DNA of 64,000 nt from an uncultured SAR86 cluster bacterium (GTDB lineage: Bacteria > Pseudomonadota > Gammaproteobacteria > Magnimaribacterales > TMED112), in NCBI GenBank assembly GCA_902619265.1, contig CACNDL010000001.1, positions 186,001-250,000 of the forward strand, given 5' to 3'. Position 1 is the first letter of the stretch; each line of letters opens with the position of its first letter. The position numbers and the translations under genes are program-made. Below the pieces are notes generated by a model that had not been told where the DNA came from, made no database searches, and saw only the letters and a program-made list of their open reading frames with translations. Of this stretch, positions 34,442-36,650 are shown piece by piece.

Positions 34442-34846
34442 ATGGATTTCTTCGATTTTCTCATAAGTAGATGGTATTTATCACTACCATTGCTCATTAC
34501 ATTAATTTTTTGGTACATGTATGAGACTAGCAAAGGAGGTAAAAGAATTACGCCTTCACAGGCTGTGGATCTTATTAATAACAAAGACGCCATCTTTGTA
34601 GATATACGAGAAAAAGATAATTTTGATTCTGGACATATACATGGATCAATAAATGTTCAAAAAGATTCATTTGAAAAACAAGAACATTTGCTCAACAAAG
34701 GTAAGCCTATAGTTGTTATTACAGAAAATGGATTAGATGCTGGTAGTGCTGGAGTTGAATTATTAAAACTAGGTATTGAAGAAGTTTATTTGCTCAAAGA
34801 TGGACTAATTTCTTGGCAGGAAGAGAGCCTCCCACTAGTTAAATGA
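34442..34846 (+). CDS. Membrane-anchored rhodanese-fold protein without catalytic cysteine (YibN-like)
   Basis: 134 aa with an N-terminal transmembrane helix (about residues 11-26) followed by a rhodanese domain (ITPSQAVDLINNKDAIFVDIRE, FDSGHIHGSINV). The active-site loop reads VVITENGLDAGSAG, where active rhodaneses have a cysteine, and the whole protein contains no cysteine. It therefore cannot act as a sulfurtransferase by the normal mechanism. YibN of enterobacteria has the same anchor-plus-rhodanese layout. Divergent from gpmA with 52 bases between. Confidence 0.82.
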   Translation: MDFFDFLISRWYLSLPLLITLIFWYMYETSKGGKRITPSQAVDLINNKDAIFVDIREKDNFDSGHIHGSINVQKDSFEKQEHLLNKGKPIVVITENGLDAGSAGVELLKLGIEEVYLLKDGLISWQEESLPLVK

Positions 34847-34867: not shown

Positions 34868-35841
34868 GTTAAAGTGCCTACAATGTGAGCAATAATTTTG
34901 TATGGGTCTGCATTAGAAGCTGGTCGTCTGTCTTCTAGGTAACCATTCCAATCATGCTCCACTGTATAAACAGGTATTCTTATACTTGCACCACGATCAC
35001 TGACTCCATATGAGAATTCAGTAATTTTTTGTGTTTCATGAAGTCCTGTTAATCTTTGGTCATTATCTGATCCATATGCTGCAATCCCTTCAGCATGAAC
35101 TTCACCAAGCTTGTCACACATAGATGAAAAAAGTTCTTCAGAACCTGCAGTTCTCATTGCTTCATTGGAGAAGTTAGTATGCATACCGGATCCATTCCAA
35201 TCACCTTTTTTTGGTTTCGGGTGAATATTTACGCCAACACCATACTCTTCTGCAACTTTATAAAGTAAGTATCTACTTACCCATAAATCATCAGCAGCTT
35301 TGATACCTTTACCGAAGCACTGATACTCCCATTGTCCCAATGCTACTTCAGCATTAGTACCAGTTAGGTTTATGCCGGCTGCTAGACAAGCATCCAAATG
35401 AGCTTCAGAAACTTCTCTTCCTGAAACATTATCAGCTCCAACACCACAATAGTAATCTCCCTGAGGTCTTGGTTCACCTTCTTCCCAACCTAATGGAGAG
35501 CCATCTTTGTTAGTAAAGAAATACTCCTGTTCAAAACCGAACCACCACTCATCAGAAACAACTGCATCAGCTGCTGCTCTGGTATTAGAGGGATGAGTTT
35601 TGTGATCTGCCGAATGCACTTGTGTCATTACCAGAAAGTCGGAATACATTGGACTTTCATAGGTTTGCACAGGCAACAGCAAACAGTCAGAACTATCTCC
35701 TTCCGCTTGTTGCGTAGAAGATCCGTCAAAAGACCACTCAGGTGGAGTGTCTTCATCAGTTACTTTAATTTTACTTCTCATAGAAGGCTCTGGTTGAAAT
35801 CCATCAAGCCAGATATATTCGTATTTTTTTAAATCACCCAT
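34861..35841 (-). CDS. glnA: Glutamine synthetase type II (GSII)
   Basis: 326 aa, far shorter than the roughly 470 aa GSI usual in gammaproteobacteria and close to eukaryotic GSII. GSII signatures are WSFDGSSTQQAEGDSSD, FGFEQEYFF (metal ligand glutamate), NAEVALGQWEYQ, GDWNGSGMHTNFS and SDRGASIRIPVYT. It makes glutamine from glutamate, ammonia and ATP. GSII has no adenylylation site, so GlnE-type control should not apply. The 5' leader holds a glutamine-riboswitch-like RNA and a possible helix covering the AGGAG ribosome binding site. Confidence 0.95.
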   Translation of the reverse strand: MGDLKKYEYIWLDGFQPEPSMRSKIKVTDEDTPPEWSFDGSSTQQAEGDSSDCLLLPVQTYESPMYSDFLVMTQVHSADHKTHPSNTRAAADAVVSDEWWFGFEQEYFFTNKDGSPLGWEEGEPRPQGDYYCGVGADNVSGREVSEAHLDACLAAGINLTGTNAEVALGQWEYQCFGKGIKAADDLWVSRYLLYKVAEEYGVGVNIHPKPKKGDWNGSGMHTNFSNEAMRTAGSEELFSSMCDKLGEVHAEGIAAYGSDNDQRLTGLHETQKITEFSYGVSDRGASIRIPVYTVEHDWNGYLEDRRPASNADPYKIIAHIVGTLTK

Positions 35842-35845
35842 TTTG

Positions 35846-35899
35846 GCTCCTAAAATTTTAAAGTTATTAAATGCATCAGTATCTGCAGGATTTAGAAGC
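35846..35899 (-). promoter_or_regulatory. Candidate expression platform: helix covering the glnA ribosome binding site
   Basis: On the RNA, GCUUCUAAA (from 35899 to 35891) can pair with UUUAGGAGC (35854 to 35846), 9 pairs including one G-U, with a 36-base loop. The second strand contains the AGGAG Shine-Dalgarno just before the glnA ATG at 35841. This would suit a translational riboswitch. I worked it out by hand; alternative folds were not scored. Confidence 0.5.
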
Positions 35900-35923
35900 T
35901 AAACTCGACCGGGTTTAACGCTC

Positions 35924-35971
35924 GCGTTCCTTCGGTTTTCACCTACTTCCGTCTTTTTTCAAAGATGAACG
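35924..35971 (-). ncRNA. Glutamine riboswitch (glnA RNA aptamer)
   Basis: The reverse-strand RNA reads CGUUC at the 5' side, a UCUUU-GAAA-AAAGA hairpin, the highly conserved CGGAAGUAGG segment, a GG-UGAAAA-CC hairpin, then CCGAAGGAACGC closing helix P1 (CGUUC 35971-35967 with GAACG 35929-35925). This order and these conserved stretches match the published glnA-motif/glutamine riboswitch, known mostly from cyanobacteria and marine metagenomes. It lies 82 bases upstream of the glnA start codon. Whether glutamine turns expression up or down cannot be told from sequence. Confidence 0.88.
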
Positions 35972-35988
35972 ATTTTAACTACTTCCCT

Positions 35989-36003
35989 AAAAGGGCCCCT
36001 TTT
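35989..36003. other. 15-base palindrome upstream of the glutamine aptamer
   Basis: AAAAGGG-C-CCCTTTT, symmetric about 35996. In the glnA direction it directly precedes AGGGAAGTAG, which shares the 8-base GGAAGTAG word with the aptamer core. It may be the yqiA transcript terminator or part of the leader fold. The rest of 36004-36074 holds nothing I recognise. Confidence 0.4.
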
Positions 36004-36074
36004 TAACCATGGAGTATGGTGCAAATGTAATGCAATTCTAATTTAGTATTTTTAATTTAAATTGGCAATTAGAA

Positions 36075-36650
36075 TCAAGAAAAATGAAGAAGAATTTGAG
36101 GAATTTTTTGTTCAAGCCCATCAAAACTATGAGAGCCTCCTTCATCAATTGCAATTCTTGCTCCTGAAAAATATTTTTCTGCGTATTTGTAGTCCAAAGT
36201 CTCATCACCAGTTTGCAGTAGAACTAAATATCTATCTGGAGTGGGATTCTCAATAAATATATCTTCTAAGCTATCAATCCAAGCCTGATCAATGAAATAT
36301 TTTTCACCAGTATTGAGGTTTTCAACATCCCCTCGATCATTTTCAAAAATTTTATATGCCCAAACTGCTGGATTAATCATAGCTGCTTTCAAATTTAAAT
36401 TTTCAGCAAGAAAAACGGAGTAATATCCACCTAGAGAACTACCTACTAAATGAACATTATATTTACTCTGCTTTTCTGAAATGAATTCTGTTAACTGCTT
36501 AATAGCTTCTCTTGGATGATTTTTGAGTGTTAGAGAGGCTGTATCAAAAATTTCATGATTTTTAAGCTCATGTTCAATAAGCTGTGCTTTTCTTGCATTT
36601 GCGTGTGAGTTCCAACCATGCACGTAAAGAATTAAATCTCTTTTATTCAT
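36075..36650 (-). CDS. yqiA: YqiA family esterase (UPF0227)
   Basis: 191 aa small alpha/beta hydrolase. LILYVHGWNSHANARKAQ gives the oxyanion region, HLVGSSLGGYYSVFLAE the nucleophile elbow (GSSLGG), QTGDETLDYKYA the acid and GGSHSFDGLE the histidine. YqiA of E. coli hydrolyses short acyl esters. I use the ATG at 36650, preceded by AGGTGG; a GTG three codons earlier is also in frame. It overlaps yqiB by 8 bases, the same partner as in enterobacteria. Confidence 0.88.
   Translation of the reverse strand: MNKRDLILYVHGWNSHANARKAQLIEHELKNHEIFDTASLTLKNHPREAIKQLTEFISEKQSKYNVHLVGSSLGGYYSVFLAENLNLKAAMINPAVWAYKIFENDRGDVENLNTGEKYFIDQAWIDSLEDIFIENPTPDRYLVLLQTGDETLDYKYAEKYFSGARIAIDEGGSHSFDGLEQKIPQILLHFS

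Follow-up and report, generated by a model that had tools for sequence, protein, structure and literature searches.

What senses nitrogen sufficiency in a marine gammaproteobacterium whose glutamine synthetase gene, glnA, is preceded by what looks like a glutamine-binding RNA? The question is raised by a 64,000-nucleotide stretch of DNA from an uncultured SAR86 bacterium, analysed here in full and called the window. A first-pass annotation had proposed that a glutamine riboswitch controls a type II glutamine synthetase (GSII) on a gammaproteobacterial chromosome, that the RNA may be the main feedback on an enzyme free of adenylylation control, and that RNA and enzyme may have been acquired together. 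The chromosome is indeed gammaproteobacterial, as it belongs to SAR86, a group that is among the most abundant bacteria of the surface ocean and is uncultured. According to PMC11582366, TMED112 of GTDB corresponds to the CHAB-I-7 family within SAR86, and the host genus (g1) most probably falls within it.

The glutamine-I aptamer and its distribution in SAR86

A scan of the whole window with cmscan matched the RF01739 model over its full length (positions 1-53 of 53) at 69.2 bits and E 2.8e-13, where the gathering score is 35. The match lies 80 nt upstream of the GSII gene, and the coordinates given before, 35924-35971, were right but 2-3 nt short at each end. All conserved blocks are present in order, namely the P1 strands CGUUC/GAACG, a hairpin, CGGAAGUAGG, a short hairpin and CCGAAGGAACGC. 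The 34 distinct aptamers of SAR86 align without conflict to a three-helix structure with an invariant core (CGUUC, GGAAGUA and GAAGGAACG), and standard pairs fill 97.7% of their paired cells. Two-sided changes occur at 7 of the 13 pairs, in 73 cells against 21.9 in shuffles; P2 and P3 are both rich in them and covary, and the signal is abolished in a control in which the pairing partners are slid. The riboswitch identification thus stands, and the aptamer is a genuine member of the RF01739 family, which would imply, by family membership, that it binds L-glutamine. The Downstream-peptide model (RF01704, glutamine-II), the other covariance model that had been suggested, gave no match in 35840-36100 under permissive thresholds up to E 5, and no Rfam family besides RF01739 was found in this leader at permissive thresholds.

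Across SAR86, the aptamer exceeds the cut-off in 81 of 203 genomes (95 at E 0.001), frequently in tandem as two or three copies, and 20 of 21 host-genus genomes carry it. Among 369 evenly sampled gammaproteobacterial genomes, it was found outside SAR86 only in one 1.1-Mb genome (G486), where the two aptamers (L159, L162) precede two ORFs that resemble gltB and gltD by sequence. The two leaders of that genome have the hairpin CACCAAACUUUAAACCUAGAGUUUGGUG in common. As is typical of the family, the aptamers of the host genome lie in the 5' UTR of nitrogen-metabolism genes: a second one precedes a Gcw_chp/TorF-family porin followed by amtB, so that the host genome holds a small glutamine regulon. 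The targets in SAR86 form a nitrogen-centred regulon, which includes GSII, type I glutamine synthetase (GSI), porin-amtB (with a PII gene in between in G048) and gltB, and further an ATP-grasp/Alpha-E pair, a TonB receptor, a DUF4177 protein with an amino-acid permease, DUF4278 small proteins and uncharacterised proteins of about 50 aa.

Several of these targets were noted at individual loci. The glutamate synthase gene gltB follows aptamers in genus g3 (L147, L148), the circularly permuted ATP-grasp/Alpha-E pair at L024 and L140-L143, the TonB-dependent receptor at L128 and L129, and the DUF4177 protein with its permease at L133 and L135. DUF4278-like small proteins lie behind aptamers at L134, L139 and L160, the last of which has a long insertion in the P3 loop. 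The proteins of about 50 aa stand directly behind tandem aptamers in several genera (L131, L137, L144, L145, L149); several end in DxFFPYYL, and a longer ORF overlaps the aptamer. Near amtB in genus g7, IMES-1 RNA (RF02034) was matched with 190-200 bits (L127 2820-3008, L130 3094-3284), which gives a host to this orphan RNA known from marine sequences.

Marine metagenomes had already revealed the aptamer family itself, its occurrence in tandem and its association with glutamine synthetase genes (Weinberg 2010, PMC2864571), and the genes listed there comprise glutamine synthetase, PII, glutamate synthase and the ammonium transporter. A 2018 review describes glutamine riboswitches as restricted to cyanobacteria, with the links to glutamine synthetase, PII and the ammonium transporter coming only from environmental samples (PMC6316151), while a 2024 comparative study of SAR86 mentions glnA and amtB and no riboswitch (PMC11582366). 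The literature search found no paper that assigns glutamine riboswitches to SAR86. What is new is therefore the owner and the genomic context. The metagenomic RNAs share their genes and tandem copies with those described here but came with no organism, whereas closed and single-cell SAR86 genomes add the owner, the regulon, the synteny and the missing NtrC and PII; many of the metagenomic RNAs are probably from SAR86. The restriction to cyanobacteria and marine metagenomic DNA named in the first-pass annotation reflects unassigned metagenome sequence and not biology. Phage glutamine riboswitches (Melnitz, Mosig; PMC9004378) have the same aptamer family and also belong to marine streamlined systems, but they are linked to phage tmRNA or other phage genes and not to a chromosomal glutamine synthetase.

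Protein circuit and RNA at the glnA locus

Aptamers in glnA leaders, located by comparing aptamer and glnA coordinates and by reading the downstream genes, were found only in the host genus and in genus g7, which belongs to another family. These are the lineages from which the protein circuit is absent. NtrC (TIGR01818) is above cut-off in 138 of 203 SAR86 genomes, but in 0/21 of the host genus and 0/10 of g7; PII is present in 165 of 203, with 0/21 in the host genus and 1/10 in g7 (G048). All 11 genomes sampled from the two genera lack GlnD and RpoN, which the five sampled control genomes of families f3 and f4 have. The adenylylating enzyme GlnE is absent from the whole order (0/203), which supports the proposed lack of adenylylation control. 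Since the set of g1 and g7 includes single-contig genomes (G191, G196) and one of 97% completeness (G192), the absence of the circuit genes is more than missing sequence. The aptamer-glnA cases represent at most two evolutionary events and not 31 independent ones, and statistics for independent samples are therefore not attached to them.

NtrC-positive SAR86 genomes have the order DUF1249-YqiA-glnA, then 2-2.7 kb with ntrBC, then rhodanese-like-gpmA-mutY, and the ntrBC block is missing from behind glnA in g1 and g7. The gap from glnA to the next gene is 20-52 bp in most aptamer loci versus 1984-2682 bp elsewhere, where it contains ntrBC; in two loci of the host genus the gap is 1.3 kb and amtB then follows glnA. 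The NtrC-type operator TGCAC-N7-GTGCA, allowing at most one mismatch, occurs in 40 of the 60 glnA leaders that lack an aptamer, in 0/18 aptamer leaders and in none of the shuffles. Neither the regulator (0/21 in the genus) nor the operator of an NtrC-controlled glnA was thus found. The patterns of ntrBC and operator indicate that protein circuit and RNA are alternatives at the same locus, and the restriction of the glnA switch to lineages without NtrC, GlnD and PII (with the one PII exception) suggests that the RNA sensor is a replacement, this substitution probably being causal and not a mere correlation. Because NtrC, PII, GlnD and RpoN are missing too, it is plausible, as the first-pass annotation had proposed, that the RNA is the main feedback on glutamine synthetase expression. 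The glnA genes under NtrBC and PII, of the enterobacterial type and in most other SAR86, have the locus order DUF1249-YqiA-glnA in common with this one, and probably also the lowering of glutamine synthetase expression by glutamine; they differ in that the sensor here is the mRNA, instead of a uridylyltransferase/PII/two-component chain, and that ntrBC is gone from the locus.

Partial losses were seen elsewhere in the order. In G008-G016 (family f2, genus g3), where the aptamer controls gltB, NtrC is reduced to its receiver part (model positions 1-154), and G006 keeps NtrC without GlnD and with only a fragment of RpoN.

The composite leader and its proposed switching

The glnA mRNA leader is proposed to consist of a promoter, a 5' pseudoknot-like element, one glutamine-I aptamer and an expression platform acting on translation (Table 1). 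The sigma70-type promoter comes from a consensus scan in which about 0.8 matches are expected by chance, and the arrangement TTGCNN-N17/18-TA(A/C)A(T/A)T recurs in relatives that bear the aptamer. A sigma54 promoter with an NtrC site upstream of the leader was rejected, as spacing and half-sites do not fit and RpoN is absent.

Table 1. Features of the glnA leader and its surroundings; positions refer to the window unless another locus is named
Feature	Position	Strand	Basis or remark
Sigma70-type promoter of the glnA transcript	36040..36068	-	-35 TTGCCA, 17 nt, -10 TAAATT; consensus scan
Conserved 5' element, candidate H-type pseudoknot	35996..36020	-	pair conservation in relatives
Small hairpin CCC-UUUUA-GGG	35985..35995	-	between 5' element and aptamer
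Glutamine-I riboswitch aptamer (RF01739)	35921..35973	-	cmscan; SAR86 covariation
Candidate anti-aptamer strand GUUUAGCUUC	35895..35904	-	pairs with aptamer GAAGGAAC; conserved in glnA leaders
Anti-Shine-Dalgarno strand GCUUCUAAA	35891..35899	-	9-bp duplex with 35846-35854
glnA Shine-Dalgarno region UUUAGGAGC	35846..35854	-	anti-SD target; sequence and duplex test
glnA, type II glutamine synthetase, 326 aa	34861..35841	-	NF041605, PF00120, PF03951
Small rhodanese-like gene (first-sight name)	34442..34846	+	tail to tail with glnA; synteny, gap lengths
Second aptamer region	L002 1390-1551 (G000:C2:237981-238031)		two 5' pseudoknot-like copies precede the aptamer

Directly 3' of the predicted start site, near 36033, ACCAUACUCCAUGGUUAAAAAGGAG or a variant of it is found in the aptamer leaders of both g1 and g7. 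In the window, stem 1 would be formed by ACCAU/AUGGU (36020-36016 with 36010-36006) and stem 2 by CUCC/GGGG (36014-36011 with 35999-35996), with an A-rich loop. Standard pairs make up 98.7% in 25 distinct relatives, but the variants were chosen by a pattern that fixes part of the bases, so that only the outer pair of stem 1 is an unbiased test; this pair varies as A-U, C-G and G-U, and one pair of stem 2 as C-G and U-A. In the amtB leaders, repeated CCCAU/AUGGG strands would also allow a nested pairing instead, and in some genomes the outer pair is broken in the second amtB copies; a plain CUCC..GGAG hairpin takes the place of the pseudoknot in two genomes. The element has no Rfam match, permissive thresholds included, and is a candidate for a previously undescribed leader component with a predicted fold. 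A free-standing regulon of this element was rejected, as its only three convincing copies in the host genome each adjoin an aptamer. The small hairpin that follows has equivalents of other sequence in relatives (CCCAU..AUGGG, CUCAA..UUGAG). The stretch GGGAAGTAG (about 35979-35987) was considered as a decayed second aptamer and rejected, since relatives show it to be the 3' arm of this hairpin plus linker.

Downstream of the aptamer, GCUUCUAAA and UUUAGGAGC can form a 9-bp duplex of -10.5 kcal/mol (shuffle p 0.006) over the Shine-Dalgarno (SD) region. In L058 the 9 bp are kept with a different sequence (CUUCUAUAG/CUAUAGGAG), whereas L114 has a long interrupted helix and L035 and L039 use CUCCU. 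The conserved strand GUUUARCUUC is complementary to GAAGGAAC of the aptamer and is used in many of the predicted ligand-free folds, while in single-sequence shuffles this anti-aptamer helix does not reach significance. An intrinsic terminator was rejected as the output, none being found between aptamer and AUG.

The current model proposes that, at low glutamine, the 3' half of the aptamer (GAAGGAAC) would pair with the downstream GUUUARCUUC strand, whose CUUC part would thereby be kept from masking the ribosome-binding site, so that GSII is made. At high glutamine, the aptamer would close around its ligand and free CUUCUAAA, which would pair with UUUAGGAG at the Shine-Dalgarno and lower GSII synthesis. 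This negative feedback would substitute for the NtrBC-PII-GlnD-GlnE circuit missing from the lineage. The conserved 9-bp helix suggests that glutamine shuts off glnA translation, and the OFF direction is a best guess from modelled folds, because forcing the aptamer lowers the unpaired probability of the SD from about 0.3 to 0.01-0.12 in L058, L059 and L047 but hardly in the RNA of the window (0.12 versus 0.11, Vienna constrained folds) and acts in the opposite direction in L041, where accessibility rises. Taken as a whole, a composite leader exerting glutamine-OFF translational control of GSII in place of the NtrBC-PII-GlnD-GlnE circuit is the probable reading.

It could be argued that the same aptamer has another output, glutamine turning glnA on or acting on transcription or RNA stability instead of ribosome binding. 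Cyanobacterial glutamine riboswitches do activate expression (PMC6698751, PMC6316151), the folding of the window's leader fails to tell the two states apart, and a conserved 5' pseudoknot-like element is present as well. However, the characterised ON cases drive a glutamine synthetase inhibitor (IF17) or DUF4278 proteins, activation of glutamine synthetase by its own product would be positive feedback, and different sequences preserve the anti-SD helix while no terminator is seen; such an output is rather improbable. The gifB-type RNAs of cyanobacteria share the aptamer consensus, and DUF4278 small proteins also follow some SAR86 aptamers, but here the aptamer precedes GSII itself in a gammaproteobacterium, with an anti-SD platform, a presumably OFF direction and an additional 5' pseudoknot-like element. 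Less probable still is a dominant protein regulator with the aptamer in a secondary role, for which TTTGCACC, just upstream of the 5' element, would be the site left after NtrC loss. Aptamer-bearing glnA leaders do conserve this stretch, which looks like one half of the NtrC-type operator seen in aptamer-free leaders, but the genus lacks NtrC, RpoN, GlnD and PII, none of the 18 aptamer leaders has the full operator, and the site would sit downstream of the -10 box.

Leader and enzyme as separate histories

The window's GlnA is a type II enzyme, as had been annotated: the GSII model NF041605 scores 386.5 bits (E 1e-115), short of the strict cut-off of 500 set for that model, compared with only 50.5 bits for the GSI model. 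Its nearest named relatives (100%, 99% and 98%) come from SAR86 genomes obtained from single cells and metagenomes, the TMED112 lineage among them.

The proposal that riboswitch and GSII arrived as one transferred cassette, for instance from cyanobacteria, can draw on the DUF4278 proteins behind some SAR86 aptamers, typical cyanobacterial targets that make it plausible that the RNA was exchanged with cyanobacteria or their phages. As to the enzyme, GSII is widespread in SAR86 at the syntenic locus DUF1249-YqiA-glnA, and most of these glnA genes have no aptamer. In the GSII tree the aptamer-bearing genes are scattered over several clades, namely the main g1 group, a g7 group among family f3, and G200. 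The GSII of G200 (L088) lies inside another SAR86 clade, although the gene has a g1 leader and g1 synteny; G187 (L114) has the same N-terminus and locus, and L087 shows the reverse situation. At the corresponding locus of G192 and G194, between the same flanking genes, the g1 leader has tandem aptamers and stands in front of a GSI (637 bits); a search of G192 found no GSII. The leader of the host genus thus drives a native GSII, a foreign SAR86-type GSII or a GSI at one locus, the enzymes having been exchanged beneath a retained control RNA. This contradicts the joint acquisition that the first-pass annotation had considered, and the cassette is very unlikely. GSI and GSII genes stand side by side, with ntrC, in G017:C12 and G024:C8, a possible source of the GSI swap.

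A wider reading goes beyond the preferred composite leader with OFF control. It holds both that the mRNA sensor wholly replaced NtrBC/PII/GlnD/GlnE in two SAR86 lineages, by way of a leader that predates the enzyme under its control (GSII, replaced GSII or GSI), and that the 5' element forms an additional sensor or regulatory module, of a class not described before, cooperating with the aptamer; as a joint claim it is speculative and rather unlikely.

These results provide an owner for glutamine riboswitches from anonymous ocean DNA and contradict the cyanobacteria-only statement (PMC6316151). GSII, foreign GSII and GSI under one kept leader show plainly how a control RNA can outlive its enzyme. 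The glnA switch, together with the loss of NtrBC, PII, GlnD and RpoN, leads to the testable idea that streamlining replaces protein circuits by cis-acting RNA sensors.
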